Below are positions 1 to 10,101 of a DNA stretch of 31,810 nucleotides, in pieces; positions within the stretch are counted from its first letter, which is position 1, and each line of letters opens with the position of its first letter. A program made the translations under genes and the position numbers. The notes under the pieces were generated by a model, which saw nothing but the letters and a program-made list of their open reading frames with translations, made no database searches and was not told where the DNA came from. Source of the DNA: a virus; IMG/VR virus record IMGVR_UViG_3300032278_000068, positions 1-31,810 of that record, one strand, 5' to 3'.

Positions 1-350
1 TACATCGACCCCCGAATGATCTGGTGGGAAAGTCGGGGTCTCGAACAGACATGCCCTATCACGTAAGACGAAGGGCGCACCTTCGCTGGGCTTTCAGTCA
101 CCTGCCAATAGACTGAGAGCAGTCTATCCAATAAAGAACTCAATCCCTCAAGGATCACCCACTGAGGTAAAATGCTCTGGCGGCAAGGGTGCGAAAGTGA
201 ACCACGTAATGGTTCGGGGCTACCAGCAACAACGGAAGGTAAAGGTAACCAACAGCGGTAGGAGAGGACGAGGGGGATAGAGATCCGTCTTTATGGAAGC
301 GTTGACTGTGAAAGACTTGACTTATCACCAAATTATATTATATTTGTCTC

Positions 351-400
351 TAACGATGCCTCCATACATGGGTTCCTCCTCAGTATGAGATCGTTATTTT
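351..400 (+). terminator. Stem-loop followed by T4, possible terminator
   Basis: TAACGAT (351-357) pairs with ATCGTTA (390-396), an inner ATAC/GTAT pairing extends the stem, and TTTT follows at 397-400. The loop contains CCTCCT, which is complementary to a Shine-Dalgarno site. It could be a weak terminator or simply one domain of the preceding structured RNA. Confidence 0.35.
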
Positions 401-408
401 CCCACCAA

Positions 409-444
409 CCCTGCGGCCCTCACGGGTCGTAGGGCTTTCTTATC
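409..444 (+). terminator. Terminator-like hairpin directly before the nuclease-like gene
   Basis: CCCTGCGGCCC (409-419) pairs with GGGTCGTAGGG (424-434) over 11 bp with two G-U pairs and a TCAC tetraloop. The pyrimidine tract CTTTCTTATCT runs right up to the ATG at 446. The T tract is imperfect. Because no Shine-Dalgarno site fits between hairpin and ATG, it may act as an attenuator for the next gene rather than as a full stop. Confidence 0.6.
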
Positions 445-445
445 T

Positions 446-895
446 ATGAATAATAAACCCGAACATCAAGAAGTAGAGCAGATGGTGGCCGATAGAATAT
501 CCACCATCTTCAAATGCAGAGAGCTAAAAACAGGCTCTGAAACCGCCCGCGTAGATAGAATCTTCTTCCGAGATGGTAAAGCCGTAGCCATAGCAGAAAT
601 AAAAGGACGCAAAGAATCCATCGAACAACTGAAAGAATGGGGTTCCCTCCTCATCACCGCCGATAAGCTGACAGACGGACAACTGCTATCCTCCCTACTT
701 CATGTTCCCTTCTATGTAATAGCCTACCTCAAAGCATCAAAAGCTATCGCCCTGTTCCCTATTACCGATGACCGTGGATCGCTTAAATGTAACTACACCG
801 TAAAAGAAACCGAAACAAAAGCTCATTGTGAGGGTGGCCTAGCCCTGAGAGAGAATGCCTTCATACCACTAGACCAGATGAGGTTATACGAATGA
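446..895 (+). CDS. PD-(D/E)XK nuclease-like protein
   Basis: 149 aa. The core shows a nuclease-fold signature: an N-terminal helix (residues 8-24) with acidic residues, D37 in ARVDRIFF, and the E51-I-K53 motif in AIAEIKGRK. A helix with a Trp follows, as in many small PD-(D/E)XK enzymes that cut or resolve DNA using a metal ion. The remaining part is a plain alpha/beta pattern. Which substrate it acts on cannot be told from sequence. The gene ends in an ATGA overlap with the terminase-like gene, so the two are probably co-translated and may both act in DNA packaging or end processing. The start is unusual: a terminator-like hairpin ends 11 bases before the ATG and no Shine-Dalgarno site is visible; an internal ATG at 482 also lacks one. 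Fold assignment is fairly sure, role is inference. Confidence 0.6.
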   Translation: MNNKPEHQEVEQMVADRISTIFKCRELKTGSETARVDRIFFRDGKAVAIAEIKGRKESIEQLKEWGSLLITADKLTDGQLLSSLLHVPFYVIAYLKASKAIALFPITDDRGSLKCNYTVKETETKAHCEGGLALRENAFIPLDQMRLYE

Positions 896-1506
896 ATGAC
901 CATAGACCCCCCGCCGATAAAGCCGCCCCCTTCAGAAATAAACCCGAAAAAAGAGAACTCATCATAGATGTTGTCGCTAAGTGGAAAGCACTACCCACCG
1001 AACTCAAAGAAGATAGGACATTAGGCGAACTGGCCCGAAGACATGGCATAACACCCAATACCGCCTTCTACCATACCGCTCGGTCCGCTGAAGTATATCA
1101 CCGGATGCTTACCGAAGTAGCCGGAAAAGGACTGGACGAAGCCCCCGAAATACTCCATACCCTTGCGAAAAATGCTAAGGAAGGGCATACACGCTCTGCC
1201 GAAGTCTACCTAGACTTTGTACGTAAGACCCTCACCGACGATAAACTCATAGCGCAAGTGAGACCCCCCAAACAACTGCAAGATACCCTAGAAAAGATCG
1301 GTAAAGGCGCTACCGAGATGCTCCAAATAGCTAAAACCCTCGCTAATCCCGAAGAAGCTAACGCCTACCTACAAGCCCAAGCCGTAGATGGCGAGTTCGT
1401 AGATGTGAACGAGGCCCAACATTTGGACGATTCTACATCCGAGGGGGCAAACGAATCCCCCCGTATGATGGTCGCAGGGGGAAACGACCTCCCACGGGGG
1501 GTATAA
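892..1506 (+). CDS. Probable terminase small subunit (TerS-like)
   Basis: 204 aa. Residues about 42-65 (LGELARRHGITPNTAFYHTA) form a helix-turn-helix, and the next 60 residues are helical with a segment (EGHTRSAEVYLDFVRK) that resembles the oligomerisation part of many phage small terminases. The C-terminal 50 residues are acidic and probably disordered. Small terminases recognise the packaging site and load the large subunit. The start overlaps the stop of the nuclease-like gene (ATGA). Unusually, no large terminase follows: downstream is a 1-kb structured non-coding region. The coding strand here is C-rich, opposite to the G-rich coding strand of the genes from 2548 on. A general DNA-binding regulator with the same helix-turn-helix is the main alternative. 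Confidence 0.55.
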   Translation: MNDHRPPADKAAPFRNKPEKRELIIDVVAKWKALPTELKEDRTLGELARRHGITPNTAFYHTARSAEVYHRMLTEVAGKGLDEAPEILHTLAKNAKEGHTRSAEVYLDFVRKTLTDDKLIAQVRPPKQLQDTLEKIGKGATEMLQIAKTLANPEEANAYLQAQAVDGEFVDVNEAQHLDDSTSEGANESPRMMVAGGNDLPRGV

Positions 1507-1842
1507 AGAAGCTTCTCAGCGCCGCTAACAACCGCAACGCCTTAACGCAGTTCTCTCCGAAGAACAGTCACACGGACCTCTCCTTGGTGCTGTCCCACGT
1601 CAGTGACTTTATTCTTTCGTGACCTCTCTCTCCTCGTCACACTTCTGTTCACGGGGTGTGTCTCCCTTGCAACACCGCTTCTCTTCTCATCGGCGCGACC
1701 AAGCCACGTCTTCTCTACAACGAGCGGCATGTTCGTCTGCGACGCGTGATCACCGCCGCGAAAGGTGCTGTCTTTGCTTCGCATTCGAGAGCACCTCGCT
1801 CTGGGGTGATCCGTACAGAATGTCTGCGATGCTTTCCACAAT

Positions 1843-1860
1843 GTCCCAAAAAGACGGGAC
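1843..1860 (+). other. Hairpin with AAAAAGAC loop, copy 1
   Basis: GTCCC (1843-1847) pairs with GGGAC (1856-1860) around the 8-base loop AAAAAGAC. The same loop closed by G-C pairs recurs at 2424-2431 and 5649-5656. A relative with a 13-base loop lies at 2022-2044; both it and this copy are preceded by AT and begin GTCCCAAA. Confidence 0.8.
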
Positions 1861-1910
1861 GAACCCCGACTGATAGTGTCTGCGACCCGAGGTTTTATCA
1901 GTCGGGGTTC
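1861..1910. repeat. Perfect 15-bp inverted repeat
   Basis: GAACCCCGACTGATA at 1861-1875 is exactly complementary to 1896-1910, with a 20-base loop. The last three bases are shared with the next stem (1908-1915/1933-1940), so the two stems compete at their junction. There is no T run after either one, so neither looks like a simple terminator. Confidence 0.9.
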
Positions 1911-2363
1911 TCGACGCGTGAACAGCTACGCGGTCGAGAAGATGCCCCTTCAGCAGCACCCTTCCTTGGACCCACCCTTCCGCTCCACTCGCCCGAGGGT
2001 ACTCTCTGCCCTTTCGCTGATGTCCCAAACAGAAGAAGCGGGACGCGAAAGGGCTCTCGTCGAAACAGCCCTCCTCACCTCGCTACAGAACGCTCGCTTT
2101 GTTAAGGATAAGCCCGGCACCACTCCCACTGAATGATTTCATTCAGCGGCAGCGGAGTGCTTTCTCCGACCAGCCGTCTATTTTTCCGCTTCTCTGCTAG
2201 GGTGCCGATGGACAACAGCAAAAGCGTCCATCGGAATTATTATATCGAATGCTCAGCATAAGCAGACGGCTTTGCAGGTACGAGACGCTGCACTCTGCAT
2301 CGGCATGGACTCGACGCCACGGGTCCGTGAACACTCCTATGGTCGTGTTCACCCGTGTCTAAA

Positions 2364-2488
2364 GCTTGTCAAGGGACCGCAGTAACACGGGCCTGAAACT
2401 TCTTTGGAAAAGAAGCCGTCCCCAAAAAGACGGGGACCACTTTTCCAAACAAGTTGTCGGACGGCCCGTCTGCGAACCCTTGACAAGC
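2364..2488 (+). other. 125-nt rod-like hairpin with AAAAAGAC loop, copy 2
   Basis: A single long, almost unbranched helix. GCTTGTCAAGGG (2364-2375) pairs perfectly with 2477-2488. Inside it CGCAG pairs with CTGCG, ACGGGCC (2385-2391) with GGCCCGT (2463-2469), AACTT (2397-2401) with AAGTT (2451-2455), TTTGGAAAAG (2403-2412) with 2440-2449, and GTCCCC (2418-2423) with 2432-2437 around the loop AAAAAGAC. Small bulges separate the segments. An AT-rich tract and the first early gene follow. Confidence 0.85.
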
Positions 2489-2547
2489 ATCGCCGCGCTT
2501 CCTTTTTCTATAAGTTTTTTATTAACCTTAACTTAGTGAGGTGTACC

Positions 2548-2817
2548 ATGAAGGCTTTGAATAATAAGATATTGTGGAACAAGGCAGGGTTTGTGACCTT
2601 CACCGACCGCCAGAAAGCGGTTGAGTTCTGGTTCGCTTGTGGGTCGCGGAGCTTGGCAGTTCAGGGTGGGAGAGTCATCGCAGACGACTTCCACTTTTAC
2701 TACGTGGCGAAGGCGGGCGAAGCCGCAGCGAAGCGGGTTCAGGATTATGCCCTTGCCGTAGAGATTGAAGTTGCGGCATCGGGAGTTCATTACTCCGACA
2801 TTGCCCCTAACGCTTAG
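2548..2817 (+). CDS. Hypothetical early protein, 89 aa
   Basis: The ATG at 2548 is chosen because GAGG at 2538-2541 sits at the right distance; the frame is open upstream to 2404 but that part runs through the hairpins of the structured region and would be Arg-rich. The product starts MKALNNKILW, is mixed alpha/beta and has no motif I recognise. It is the first gene of the early plus-strand block and the first with a G-rich coding strand. It ends 11 bases before the next start, with which it shares a Shine-Dalgarno site (AGGAGG right after its stop). Confidence 0.7.
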   Translation: MKALNNKILWNKAGFVTFTDRQKAVEFWFACGSRSLAVQGGRVIADDFHFYYVAKAGEAAAKRVQDYALAVEIEVAASGVHYSDIAPNA

Positions 2818-2828
2818 GAGGAATAGCA

Positions 2829-3014
2829 ATGACTAATTACGAAGGTCGTAGTCGGGAGGAGATTCGGGCAAGCGACGCCGCACTGGCTAAGTGTCAGTGC
2901 CGCACCATCACGGTTTACAGGGACGAGGTTCCATACGAACATGACATCCTCTGCAAGACTTGCGAGGAGTTGCGAAGGTCGTGGCAGCATCCACCAGTCA
3001 ACTACGAGGAGTAG
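2829..3014 (+). CDS. Small Cys-rich (zinc-ribbon-like) protein, 61 aa
   Basis: A strong AGGAGG lies 7 bases before the ATG. Four cysteines form two pairs, C22-x-C24 and C42-x2-C45, which could bind one zinc ion as in small zinc ribbons. The rest is charged. Phages often encode such small proteins to bind nucleic acid or host polymerase, but no specific family is recognisable. A hairpin and an AGGGGGAA box follow it. Confidence 0.7.
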   Translation: MTNYEGRSREEIRASDAALAKCQCRTITVYRDEVPYEHDILCKTCEELRRSWQHPPVNYEE

Positions 3015-3018
3015 GGTC

Positions 3019-3051
3019 AGCGGTGGTGGGGCATTCGGCTCCACCACTGCT
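3019..3051 (+). other. Intergenic 11-bp stem-loop
   Basis: AGCGGTGGTGG (3019-3029) pairs with CCACCACTGCT (3041-3051), one G-U pair, loop GGCATTCGGCT. It directly precedes an AGGGGGAA box. No T run follows, so termination is unlikely to be its only role. The loop shares ATTCGG with the hairpin at 5414-5444. Confidence 0.7.
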
Positions 3052-3053
3052 TG

Positions 3054-3064
3054 AGGGGGAACAA
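3054..3064 (+). promoter_or_regulatory. AGGGGGAA box before the 205-aa gene
   Basis: AGGGGGAACAA lies 38 bases upstream of the ATG at 3102 and is separate from that gene's own GGAGGAG ribosome site. One of a family of nearly identical boxes in the early region. Confidence 0.5.
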
Positions 3065-3101
3065 CTATACATTTCTTAATATAACTCGGAGGAGAACTAA
3101 G

Positions 3102-5463: not shown

Positions 5464-5607
5464 ATGAGACTCATCATCCAGTACCTAATCGGACTCTTTG
5501 CCGTCAGCGAAGTTCTGACGAAGCAGGAGCCGACAGAAACGCCGAAGGTGCGTCGCTACTCTGGCAATAGCCACCAGCGGCGCATTCAACGACGGCGTGA
5601 GGGTTAG
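5464..5607 (+). CDS. Small basic protein with hydrophobic N-terminus, 47 aa
   Basis: GAGGAGG lies 6 bases before the ATG, which is strong support for such a short gene. The product starts MRLIIQYLIGLFAVSEVL, a hydrophobic stretch of about 18 residues that could be a membrane anchor, and ends in an Arg-rich tail (QRRIQRRREG) that could bind RNA or DNA. No family recognised. Its stop codon lies inside the 5' arm of the branched hairpin at 5603-5702, so translation could influence that fold. Confidence 0.6.
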   Translation: MRLIIQYLIGLFAVSEVLTKQEPTETPKVRRYSGNSHQRRIQRRREG

Positions 5608-5702
5608 CCCCCTATCGTCAAAAACAAATAGCTTGTTCTGCCCTCGCCAAAAAGACGGCGAGGGCAGAACAAGCTAACCGCCTTCGGCGGTAGGGGGCTA
5701 GC
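5603..5702 (+). ncRNA. Three-way-junction RNA element with AAAAAGAC loop, copy 3
   Basis: An outer 12-bp stem (5603-5614 with 5691-5702, one G-U pair) encloses a single-stranded A-rich stretch, a perfect 19-bp hairpin (5630-5648 with 5657-5675) closed by the loop AAAAAGAC, and a small hairpin CCGCC-TTC-GGCGG (5678-5690). No T run follows, so it is not a normal terminator. It fills most of the gap between the 47-aa and 85-aa genes. It may be a protein-binding, processing or antitermination site. The structure is directly visible; its role is not. Confidence 0.7.
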
Positions 5703-6013: not shown

Positions 6014-6925
6014 ATGCCTAGAACGATGTCCAACCTGTCGCATGAGGTTGAGGTTGAGCTAATCTCACCCAAGAAGGCGGCTGGTTATATGGATGGGACG
6101 TTTGAGCGTAACCGCCCCATCGTGAAGGAAGTCGTAGACATGTATGCAAAGCGCATGGATGACGGTGACTTCCTTACGGCAACGCCCATCGTATTTGCTC
6201 AGGTGGGTGATGAGAGGCTTGTGCTGGTCGATGGTCAGCATCGTATGTGGGCTGTGTCGAAAGGCACCAAAAGCCTACGCTTCACTGTGCAGACCTACTA
6301 CTTGTCAAGTGAAGATCAGTTGTCCGAGTTGTATGGGACGCTGGACGTAGGCAGGTCGCGCAACCTGAGTGATAATATTCGGGCGCACGGTTTGCCAGAG
6401 ACGATGGATCTCACACAAAGCGATTGCACCAGTCTCACAAGTGCATTAAATTTTGTAGTCCACAAGCGTCCTGCTTTCAATGTTAAGGCGCGTCAGTGCG
6501 GCACTTTCACCGATCAGATAGAAAGAGCTAGAAAGTGGCTGGCTGAAGGTCAGTGGTACTTTAATCTCCTGAAAGAAACACCTCGTCCTATGAAGGATGT
6601 AGCAAGACGCAAGGCTATCATTGCTTCTGCGATGATAACGATGCGTGGCTATCCGTCAAAGGCTAAGGATTTCTGGAAAGGCGTTCTCACATTGGAGAAC
6701 ATCAATAACGACGATATCCGCTTCAAGCTCCATATGAAGCTGATAGAGTTGGATCAGAAGCGCACCATGAACAACCCCAAGGCGGCGTATCACAGTTCGT
6801 GGCACATCGCTTCTCTTATCGCCTGTTGCTGGAATGCGTACATAAGCAATAGACAGATGACGGTCATCAAAGGACTCAGCACCATCGTGTTCAAGCGGTG
6901 TCGTTGGCGGGAAGAGAAAGACTAA
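6014..6925 (+). CDS. DGQHR-motif, ParB/sulfiredoxin-fold-like protein
   Basis: 303 aa. The ATG at 6014 is set by TAGGAGG six bases before it. The motif LVDGQHRMWAV (D73-G-Q-H-R77), preceded by a strand-rich part with VKEVVDMYAKRMDDGDF, is typical of the ParB-like nuclease/DGQHR group, whose members bind nucleotides or DNA; DndB-type proteins carry the same motif. The C-terminal 200 residues are helical and not recognised. In phages such proteins often sit with replication and recombination genes, as here next to ssb. Whether it cuts DNA, binds it or acts as a regulator cannot be decided. Box elements lie at both ends. Confidence 0.65.
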   Translation: MPRTMSNLSHEVEVELISPKKAAGYMDGTFERNRPIVKEVVDMYAKRMDDGDFLTATPIVFAQVGDERLVLVDGQHRMWAVSKGTKSLRFTVQTYYLSSEDQLSELYGTLDVGRSRNLSDNIRAHGLPETMDLTQSDCTSLTSALNFVVHKRPAFNVKARQCGTFTDQIERARKWLAEGQWYFNLLKETPRPMKDVARRKAIIASAMITMRGYPSKAKDFWKGVLTLENINNDDIRFKLHMKLIELDQKRTMNNPKAAYHSSWHIASLIACCWNAYISNRQMTVIKGLSTIVFKRCRWREEKD

Positions 6926-6942: not shown

Positions 6943-6973
6943 CAGTACACTCATAACGAGAGGAGAGACTATC

Positions 6974-7354
6974 ATGTCTCTAAACATAGTGATCTTGCAG
7001 GGTAACCTCTGCGCTGATCCAGAGTTGCGTAAAACAAGTAACGATACTCCGGTTGCTAATTTTCGCATAGCGACCAATGAGTATCGTGGCGGTGAAGAGC
7101 ACGCCGAGTTCCACAGAGTCGTCTGCTGGGATAAGACGGCTACGAACGTAAAGGAGTATTGCCAGAAGGGCAAGAACGTCACTGTCGTCGGTCGGTTGCA
7201 GCATCGCTCCTACGATGACAATGAGGGCGTTACTCGTTACGTGACGGAGGTCAATGCGAATAGGGTTAACTTTGGTGCCAGTAGCAACGGCGGCAATGGC
7301 AGCACCAGCGCCAAGACCGAAGAAGAAGCCTTAGTCGATTTTCCAGACATCTAA
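6974..7354 (+). CDS. ssb: Single-stranded DNA-binding protein
   Basis: 126 aa. Residues 1-110 match the bacterial/phage SSB OB fold: the start MSLNIVILQGNLCADPELR, then TPVANFRIATNEY, the FHRVVCWDKTA segment with YCQKGKNVTVVGRLQ, and VTRYVTEVNANRVNF. A short flexible Gly/Ser/Asn linker leads to an acidic end (EEEALVDFPDI), a variant of the usual acidic tip that docks partner proteins. It protects single-stranded DNA during phage replication and recombination, and fits the annealing and Gp157-like genes downstream. The start is supported by GAGAGGAGAG upstream. A branched RNA structure with a terminator-like tail follows right after its stop. Confidence 0.92.
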   Translation: MSLNIVILQGNLCADPELRKTSNDTPVANFRIATNEYRGGEEHAEFHRVVCWDKTATNVKEYCQKGKNVTVVGRLQHRSYDDNEGVTRYVTEVNANRVNFGASSNGGNGSTSAKTEEEALVDFPDI

Positions 7355-7360
7355 TATCTG

Positions 7361-7490
7361 AGCCAGATGTATGTAGGCAGCGGGGGAGCGCCAAGGAGAG
7401 GATCGACCTTATCTTGGTGAACGCTGTAAAGGATTATGGACTGGGGAGATATCGCCTTAATCCACTACATGCATCTGGCTTTTTCTCTTT
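7361..7490 (+). ncRNA. Y-shaped structured RNA with terminator tail
   Basis: A 16-bp closing stem (7361-7376 with 7465-7480, one G-U pair) encloses two arms. Arm one is CAGCG/CGCTG (7378-7382 with 7422-7426) continuing into CGCCAAG/CTTGGTG (7389-7395 with 7413-7419). Arm two is GGATTA/TAATCC (7431-7436 with 7458-7463). TTTTCTCTTT follows at 7481-7490, so the whole may end transcription. There is no room for a gene. It could be a stand-alone small RNA of about 125 nt, a 3' stabilising structure for ssb mRNA, or a regulated terminator in front of the gene at 7503. It lacks the features of a tRNA. Confidence 0.65.
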
Positions 7491-8675: not shown

Positions 8676-9605
8676 ATGGTAGAACAAGTAGCTCCATTAG
8701 AGGTTGACCATCAGAATCGGCTGTTGGTAGCAACGGACGATATTGGTGAAAACCGTATGTGGAATCACCGTGGTAGCGTGGAGGTATCGTATGGCGATCT
8801 TCGTCAGATAGAGGCTCCAAGCGACACGGACACGTATACAGCTATCGGTCATTCCGACTTTGCCGAGACGTTGTATAAACACGCTGACAGGCTGATGACT
8901 CCCAAGGGCTATACGCTTGAAGGTCAGCAGTATATCGTCAGCAAAGAAGGTAATCGCATGTTCTTCATTCACTCGTATTCGAATGGAGACACAGGGATGC
9001 AGTTGGCATTGGCTGGTAGAAACAGCTATGACAAGAGCATGAGGGCTGCGCTGGCTGTAGCCGCTAAGGTCACTGTATGCGATAACCTATGTATGATCAC
9101 CGAGGATGGCGTTAGCATCTTCCGCAAGCACTCAGGCAATGCGAGAAGCTACCTCAACGATCAGATCATCTTAGGGATGGTGAAGGCTACCGATTCGTGG
9201 GATGACATGAGGAGCGATAGAGACTCAATGGCTGAAGTCGATCTCAATGAACGCGAAGGCTTTGAGTTGATGGGTTATGCCAAGGCGATGACCCGAACCA
9301 ATAAGGCGGCATCCAAGAGGCTCTTGACTACGCCCAAGGAGTGGAACGCGGTCCAGAATTACTGGGAAGCTCCTAAACATGACTACGAGGGTGGTAATCG
9401 TACCTTGTGGGCGTGGTATAACTCTTTTACTGTAGATATGAAGAGTCTCAAGCCTGAGTTGCAACTCGCGCAACACGCCTCTATTCACTCTGTTGTTAAG
9501 GGGGAATTGTCTGAAAGGGACACAATAGAAGCTGTTGATGATCCCGACGAAGATCGGTTTGGCGATAAGATGGATCAGTTGCTGAATCGTGGCGATGAGG
9601 AGTAA
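8676..9605 (+). CDS. DUF932 family protein
   Basis: 309 aa. The segment NSYDKSMRAALAVAAKVTVC (residues 116-135), continuing into DN, is the hallmark of DUF932, a family common in phages and plasmids whose biochemical role is not established. A helical region follows and the tail is acidic (EAVDDPDEDRFGDKMDQLL). AGGAGG precedes the ATG. Members often lie near recombination genes, and here the Gp157-like and annealing candidates are close downstream. An AGGGGGAATT sequence occurs inside the gene at 9499-9508. A perfect 16-bp inverted repeat follows its stop. Confidence 0.8.
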   Translation: MVEQVAPLEVDHQNRLLVATDDIGENRMWNHRGSVEVSYGDLRQIEAPSDTDTYTAIGHSDFAETLYKHADRLMTPKGYTLEGQQYIVSKEGNRMFFIHSYSNGDTGMQLALAGRNSYDKSMRAALAVAAKVTVCDNLCMITEDGVSIFRKHSGNARSYLNDQIILGMVKATDSWDDMRSDRDSMAEVDLNEREGFELMGYAKAMTRTNKAASKRLLTTPKEWNAVQNYWEAPKHDYEGGNRTLWAWYNSFTVDMKSLKPELQLAQHASIHSVVKGELSERDTIEAVDDPDEDRFGDKMDQLLNRGDEE

Positions 9606-9681: not shown

Positions 9682-10101
9682 ATGTTACTTTTTTCTGGCT
9701 TATTAGGCGTATGCAGTTGGATAGTAGAGGTGGTCGTTATCCGTCAAATACCTTTCGTATGGAACATTGCGAAGAGGTCCACCAAGGCAAGTATCTCTAT
9801 CTCATTGATAGTGGCATTTGCCATTTCCACCATATTCGGAGCAGGAGGTGTTCACCTATTACTAGCCTCTATGATAGCAGTTGTGTTATCTCATTTAACG
9901 TATAGAACGGCTGGTATAGGGGGAACTATTTATGAAAGATTTAATAAGACGATTAGAAGATTGGGAGAAAGATGTGGAAAAAATAGAAAGCGAGGAAAAA
10001 CGAGAAAGGATATGGTATCTGATAGAGAAAATAGGTACCGTAGGAATAATAATCGCCATAGTTCTTCTAATGCACGCAGTAATAAAGATAGGAGGTCTTG
10101 A
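9682..10101 (+). CDS. Membrane protein with three hydrophobic segments (holin-like?)
   Basis: AGGAGGAG precedes the ATG by 5 bases. Residues 2-20 (LLFSGLLGVCSWIVEVVVI), about 36-60 and 60-75 are hydrophobic, so three membrane spans are likely, as in some holins, but nothing proves that role and its early position argues against a simple lysis gene. From about residue 84 the reading frame turns into a Lys/Arg/Ser/Asn-rich tail that coincides with the overlapping 57-aa gene in another frame. The tail therefore either is real but unusual, or marks a frame change. The frame as read ends at 10101. Confidence 0.55.
   Translation: MLLFSGLLGVCSWIVEVVVIRQIPFVWNIAKRSTKASISISLIVAFAISTIFGAGGVHLLLASMIAVVLSHLTYRTAGIGGTIYERFNKTIRRLGERCGKNRKRGKTRKDMVSDRENRYRRNNNRHSSSNARSNKDRRS
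9918..9928 (+). promoter_or_regulatory. AGGGGGAACTA box, ribosome site of the 57-aa gene
   Basis: AGGGGGAACTA sits inside the 139-codon frame and 3 bases before the ATG at 9932, at normal Shine-Dalgarno distance and with no other candidate site. Confidence 0.5.

Follow-up and report, generated by a model that had tools for sequence, protein, structure and literature searches.

In an uncultured tailed phage, a hairpin-rich region of about 1 kb probably gives rise to a previously undescribed, large structured RNA that belongs to a new family and is situated near a replication start. The region lies within the window, by which we mean the whole stretch of DNA analyzed here, an IMG/VR virus record of 31,810 bases classed as linear. 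The reading that we favor, and put forward tentatively, is that of a structured noncoding RNA of ~1 kb which is transcribed rightward, lies at the origin or forms part of it, and acts in cis at the origin or the start of the early operon. No description of such a locus was found in the open-access literature.

The hairpin locus follows a TerS-like gene and precedes the early genes

The gene order runs from leftward late genes through a second structured RNA (RNA-U, described below), a PDDEXK endonuclease gene, a TerS-like gene, and the hairpin locus to rightward early genes and then leftward structural genes. The features around the 5' boundary of the locus are as follows.

446..895, + strand: PDDEXK endonuclease gene
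892..1506, + strand: TerS-like gene; helix-turn-helix and long helices in a low-confidence model
1441..1503, + strand: G-run/C-run element (GGGGGAAACGACCTCCCACGGGGGG type) in the 3'-terminal part of the TerS-like gene, read directly in the sequence
1507..2507, + strand: hairpin-rich noncoding locus, probable structured RNA of ~1 kb

The identification of the 892..1506 product as TerS is tentative; the protein has a weak fold match to the phage protein 2ao9, and no family match was found for it. A second sequence, L003, is 99.97% identical to the window across their overlap and extends it leftwards, where it encodes a terminase large subunit (recognized through its distant similarity, in tblastn, to annotated terminases) and a P22/SU10-type portal. 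The terminase large subunit is seemingly split into separate ATPase and nuclease open reading frames (ORFs), both in L003 (4434-6179) and in the relative L010 (4648-6376).

The locus is noncoding and rich in stems

The preliminary description of this DNA held that no gene fits the locus. ORFs of up to 149 amino acids are present within 1507-2507, and tblastn searches of these ORFs against the relatives returned only short fragments, several of them crossing stop codons. No reading frame is kept, which bears out that claim, and we rejected a protein gene at this position.

The stems named in the preliminary description are all real and lie where it had placed them. The 15-bp perfect stem at 1861-1910 pairs 1861-1875 with 1896-1910, the 12-bp outer stem of the 125-nt rod pairs 2364-2375 with 2477-2488, and the 9-bp stem pairs 2205-2213 with 2226-2234; the remaining one combines 10 bp (2008-2017/2045-2054) with an inner GTCCC/GGGAC helix of 5 bp at 2022-2044. 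The locus has 6 perfect stems that reach 8 bp or more with loops of at most 60 nt; in mononucleotide shuffles the expected number was 0.35 and the maximum 1. The elements within the locus are listed here.

1619..1640, + strand: hairpin GTGAC/GTCAC, also in L005 at 8723-8744
1735..1746, + strand: conserved motif GTCTGCGACGCG, with further copies at 1822-1833 and 1878-1889; conserved in L006 and L010
1748..1811, + strand: helix H-A, GATCACC/GGTGATC, directly after GTCTGCGACGCG
1843..1860, + strand: hairpin GTCCC-aaaaagac-GGGAC, with the A-rich loop motif
1861..1910, + strand: 15-bp perfect hairpin, 13 bp of its stem identical in L010
2008..2054, + strand: hairpin of 10 bp + 5 bp with loop aaacagaagaagc
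2205..2234, + strand: 9-bp hairpin with loop aacagcaaaagc
2364..2488, + strand: 3' rod, with P1 GCTTGTCAAGGG/CCCTTGACAAGC, a covarying P2 (2378-2382/2470-2474), and an apical hairpin (2418-2437) with loop aaaaagac
2489..2507, + strand: T-run closing the structured region, a weak terminator in the window

The + strand RNA fold of the locus reaches -384 kcal/mol, with a z-score of about -8. Coding 1-kb controls from the same window range from -1.3 to -6.7, so the z-score of the locus is by itself a moderate outlier, supportive and not decisive, and we downgraded it as proof of structure. The minus strand folds nearly as well in z terms.

The preliminary description had also failed to match the region to any RNA of known consensus. 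Rfam covariance models agree with this, giving no match at the gathering threshold for the window or six related loci, and a search of window positions 1-3100 found none of GOLLD, ROOL, OLE, or HEARO up to E=5. Sub-threshold miRNA-type matches were attributed to chance, and a known Rfam RNA was rejected. The locus likewise has no match among 50,697 phage records.

Related phages carry counterparts at the same position

Protein and pattern scans of IMG/VR located homologous loci after the same TerS-like gene in three other phages.

L005, 8616-9703: homologous locus
L006, 8610-9746: homologous locus
L010 (minus strand)/L008: homologous locus

Besides the window and L005, the pattern scan with TATTATANCGAATGCTC returned unrelated chance matches only; that with TGTCAAGGRACCGYRGG recovered known members (the contig of L006, L008, and L010) along with ten other matches, and a scan with early-gene proteins added no further phage. 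Covariance models of two domains, R2 and R3, match only these first four phages (the window, L005, L006, and L008/L010). Noncoding stretches of ~1-1.5 kb also stand behind the TerS-like genes of L035, L047, L062, L067/L068 and, in part, L038 and L045. Because neither R2 nor R3 reaches L035, L047, L062, L067, or L055, we count the regions in these phages as positional counterparts only, sharing position and character. In L055 the TerS-like gene is inverted, yet a similar stretch with a G/C-run lies between it and the opposite genes. Runs resembling the G/C element at 1441..1503 open the noncoding region in the relatives, L055 included. L027, from a Gemmatimonadetes MAG, has no such locus after its TerS-like gene; an integrase gene occupies that place. 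A different hairpin element (GCAGAGTGG...CCACTCA) occurs three times in the reverse-complement noncoding region of L035 and once in that of L047.

This arrangement bears on whether the region is a packaging (pac/cos) site recognized by the TerS-like protein. The locus adjoins the gene for that protein and is abutted by the conserved G/C-run element, and several contigs break near it, although these breaks may be assembly effects. A pac or cos site needs no conservation of a 1-kb fold, however, and the hairpin region stays beside the early genes in L055 despite the inversion of the TerS-like gene there. We regard a packaging site as very improbable.

Helices are maintained through two-sided changes

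Of the 39 pairs in the H-A domain, 10 are changed on both sides, a count reached in none of 500 shuffles, and 89.7% of cells are paired compared with 27-43% when slid. Helix H-A itself reads GATCACC/GGTGATC in the window, GATCGC/GCGATC in L006 and L010, and CCGTCCC/GGGACGG in L005. Similarly, P2 of the 3' rod is CGCAG/CTGCG in the window, GGGCAG/CTGCCC in L005, and CGTGGG/CCCACG in L010, with one broken pair in L006. The P1 rows of the manual alignment table were off register for L006 and L010 and were excluded. Long stems are kept through double changes between L006 and L010, and AGTGGTG/CACCGCT is kept as AGTCATC/GATGGCT across L035/L047. Compensatory changes in homologous regions, which the preliminary description had proposed as a check, thus maintain helices in a small set of sequences, the four sequence-homologous phages. 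Some G.U pairs are kept across relatives.

Several apical hairpins have been replaced outright between relatives, a pattern that may be likened to the variable regions of other large RNAs. Some perfect stems are very long, reaching 20 bp in L006; selection for pairing alone would seldom be expected to give an RNA such stems, which count against the reading that we favor. Mismatches inside stems are equally often G.U and A.C, with no strand preference, and the attempt to assign the strand from them gave no signal. Conserved helices, folding, and covariation are alike on both strands; the pairing statistics settle neither the strand nor the choice between RNA and single-stranded DNA.

One A-rich loop recurs on one strand

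Unrelated stems carry one type of A-rich loop closed by C-G (AAAAAGAC, AAACAGAAGAAGC, AACAGCAAAAGC, AAAAAGAAGAAGC, and others). A strict search found five such loops in the window, of which four belong to the locus and the fifth to an intergenic region among the early genes, all on the + strand (5 to 0). The corresponding counts (+:-) are 3:0 in L005, 5:0 in L006, and 2:0 in L008, always in the early-gene direction. The loop is kept while the stems differ, which suggests that the loop is the part read by a partner. The copy outside the locus is the following.

5629..5676, + strand: perfect hairpin of 20 bp with loop aaaaagac, between genes of the early operon

Within window positions 5605-5700, this 20-bp hairpin with loop AAAAAGAC is enclosed by AGCCCCCTA/TAGGGGGCT. 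L067 has intergenic hairpins of 12 and 17 bp with AACAGC-type loops at 6578-6614 and 9989-10028, outside its 1-kb region.

The same loop in the hairpin at 5629-5676 and in the intergenic hairpins of L067 would suit a long early-operon leader, in which A-rich hairpins bound by a phage protein mediate RNA-based antitermination or attenuation. The locus stands directly before the early operon, and terminators precede both gene groups, as such a leader would have it. Against this, the binding protein is hypothetical, and known leader antiterminators are far shorter than 1 kb, which makes a leader quite unlikely in our judgment.

A terminator hairpin with a T-run closes the locus in L006 and L010 in the early-gene direction, and T-runs are found at the matching 3' point in the window, L005, and L047; a terminator scan of the window called none at 2489..2507. 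Inside the locus, a terminator-like hairpin followed by AATATAACC is present in L006 (9303-9320) and L010 (1683-1666), and it may divide the locus into two transcripts in these phages. Two predicted promoters, TTGACA-16-TATCTT before RNA-U and another at the RNA-U 3' end, point in the early-gene direction. Loop orientation and the terminator-like 3' ends favor an RNA from the + strand.

Strand asymmetry switches near the 3' boundary of the locus

The base composition of the two DNA strands changes where the structured region ends.

2500..2547, no strand: GC-skew switch, with its minimum at about window position 2532

Here GC skew goes from about -0.15 to +0.19. The minimum of the cumulative skew lies beyond the end of the locus by 31 nt in the window and L003, by 32 nt in L005, and by 35 nt in L010, a precision that is partly due to the first early gene starting there; in L006, L047, L062, L067, and L055 the minimum is 0.6-3.8 kb further downstream. 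The rightward PDDEXK and TerS-like genes have third-position skews of -0.43 and -0.41, respectively, unlike every other rightward gene tested. For the TerS-like gene this value is negative in all 12 of the phages in which the gene is divergent from terL, +0.20 to +0.56 in the four in which it runs with terL (L048, L050, L055, and L075), and near zero in L066 and L073. The bias tracks the DNA strand, irrespective of which strand is coding, and the skew pattern points to a replication origin near the locus as its best account. Long opposing transcription is conceivable because a leftward promoter is predicted upstream of RNA-U, and it is the weaker account.

An origin had been listed in the preliminary description as an alternative to an RNA. 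Strand asymmetry gives that alternative independent support, tempered by the displaced or weaker switch in L006, L047, L062, L067, and L055, and the two readings may both be right. The switch is also what would be expected of a DNA element, that is, an origin or single-strand initiation region whose hairpins form in single-stranded DNA and which has no functional RNA. The frequency of stems with Watson-Crick pairs only, the absence of a G.U preference, and a DNA folding z-score of -5.8 fit such an element, whereas the terminator-like 3' ends on the + strand and the conserved G.U pairs do not; nor was an iteron array found in the locus, only degenerate direct repeats of 12-23 nt. We consider a purely DNA-based element unlikely.

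A second structured RNA lies upstream

RNA-U is an independent structured RNA in the same neighborhood.

1..348, + strand: RNA-U, 5' end cut by the window; complete in L003 at 6949-7324

It is ~360 nt long, precedes the PDDEXK and TerS-like genes 1.5 kb upstream of the hairpin locus, and is 84% conserved in four closely related phages, with matches at E values of 3e-15 to 8e-4 in seven more loci (L010, L045, L043, L070, L074, L062, and L038). In a model-fitted alignment, where fitting inflates such values, 43 of 77 pairs are changed on both sides (a large effect, reached by 0 of 500 shuffles) and 90.9% of cells are paired, compared with about 40% when slid. This covariation is much stronger than that of the 1507-2507 locus. 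RNA-U was absent from the preliminary description, and the Rfam search gave no known family match for it. A strong intrinsic terminator at window positions 409-434 separates it from the PDDEXK gene, and L005 has a comparable one at 7366-7393.

Proposed role and comparison with other noncoding RNAs

Under the origin-associated RNA that we favor, transcription would run rightwards (+ strand) from upstream through the locus, and the folded RNA would end at the U-run, some 40 nt short of the first early gene, which would place its 3' end where rightward leading-strand synthesis would begin. Acting in cis, the RNA would be an origin transcript or primer and/or a regulator of early transcription and replication. 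Its stems would turn over quickly, and the recurrent A-rich loop could be read by a protein or RNA partner. We infer that the locus is transcribed, that its hairpins form in RNA rather than in single-stranded DNA, and that it has a primer or regulator role. More speculatively, and with considerable doubt, the locus may represent a new class of ~1-kb phage origin RNAs whose 3' end primes the leading strand, with fast-swapping hairpin cassettes, a single A-rich loop, and RNA-U as partner.

A structured transcript with a 3' end at the leading-strand start and a G-run near its 5' part is a likeness that we take to hold with ColE1 RNAII-type primer RNA; it is drawn by description, with priming at the locus suggested by skew only. 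The phi29 packaging RNA (pRNA) is a phage noncoding RNA of about 174 nt, whereas the locus is 1 kb long and adjoins a TerS-like gene in a TerS/TerL-type phage.

Like the locus, GOLLD, ROOL, and OLE are large multi-stem noncoding RNAs (Rfam; PMC12286853), and GOLLD and ROOL occur in phages and prophages, with unknown functions (PMC12286853). The locus differs from them in having no covariance-model match, a different repeated loop, and a placement after a TerS-like gene and ahead of the early operon. It also lacks the adjacent tRNA genes frequent for GOLLD and ROOL, as ARAGORN found no tRNA in the whole window. The lytic phage ICP1 has a 1-kb gap without ORFs, beside its lysis cluster, from which a noncoding transcript of ~800 nt is made in abundance (PMC7567579). 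Compared by description, the locus is likewise an ORF-less gap of about 1 kb, but the ICP1 transcript is proven by RNA-seq and that of the locus is predicted.

The ICP1 precedent is consistent with a large ornate RNA that acts in trans and is comparable to GOLLD or ROOL; it would be abundant, might form oligomers, and would have only an incidental position in the genome. Size, complex fold, and phage location fit such an RNA, and the repeated loop motif could serve contacts between loops or with a protein. However, the locus matches no Rfam family of this kind and has no nearby tRNA in the window, and its position at the start of the early operon is kept even with the inverted TerS-like gene of L055, which suggests a role in cis. 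We rate a trans-acting RNA as somewhat unlikely.

The preliminary description had spoken of a possible new giant phage RNA. Its noncoding status, conserved position and fold, compensatory changes, and separation from Rfam families all stand, and we infer the discrete RNA. The locus can be placed in the loose category of large phage noncoding RNAs, but it matches no Rfam family tested and has a different neighborhood and repeated loop. Noncoding stretches as long as 1 kb are rare in phages, and no function has been established for the few large RNAs known from them. Because this locus has a defined place, comparable relatives, and a simple recurrent loop usable as bait, it makes the role of a large phage RNA directly testable.
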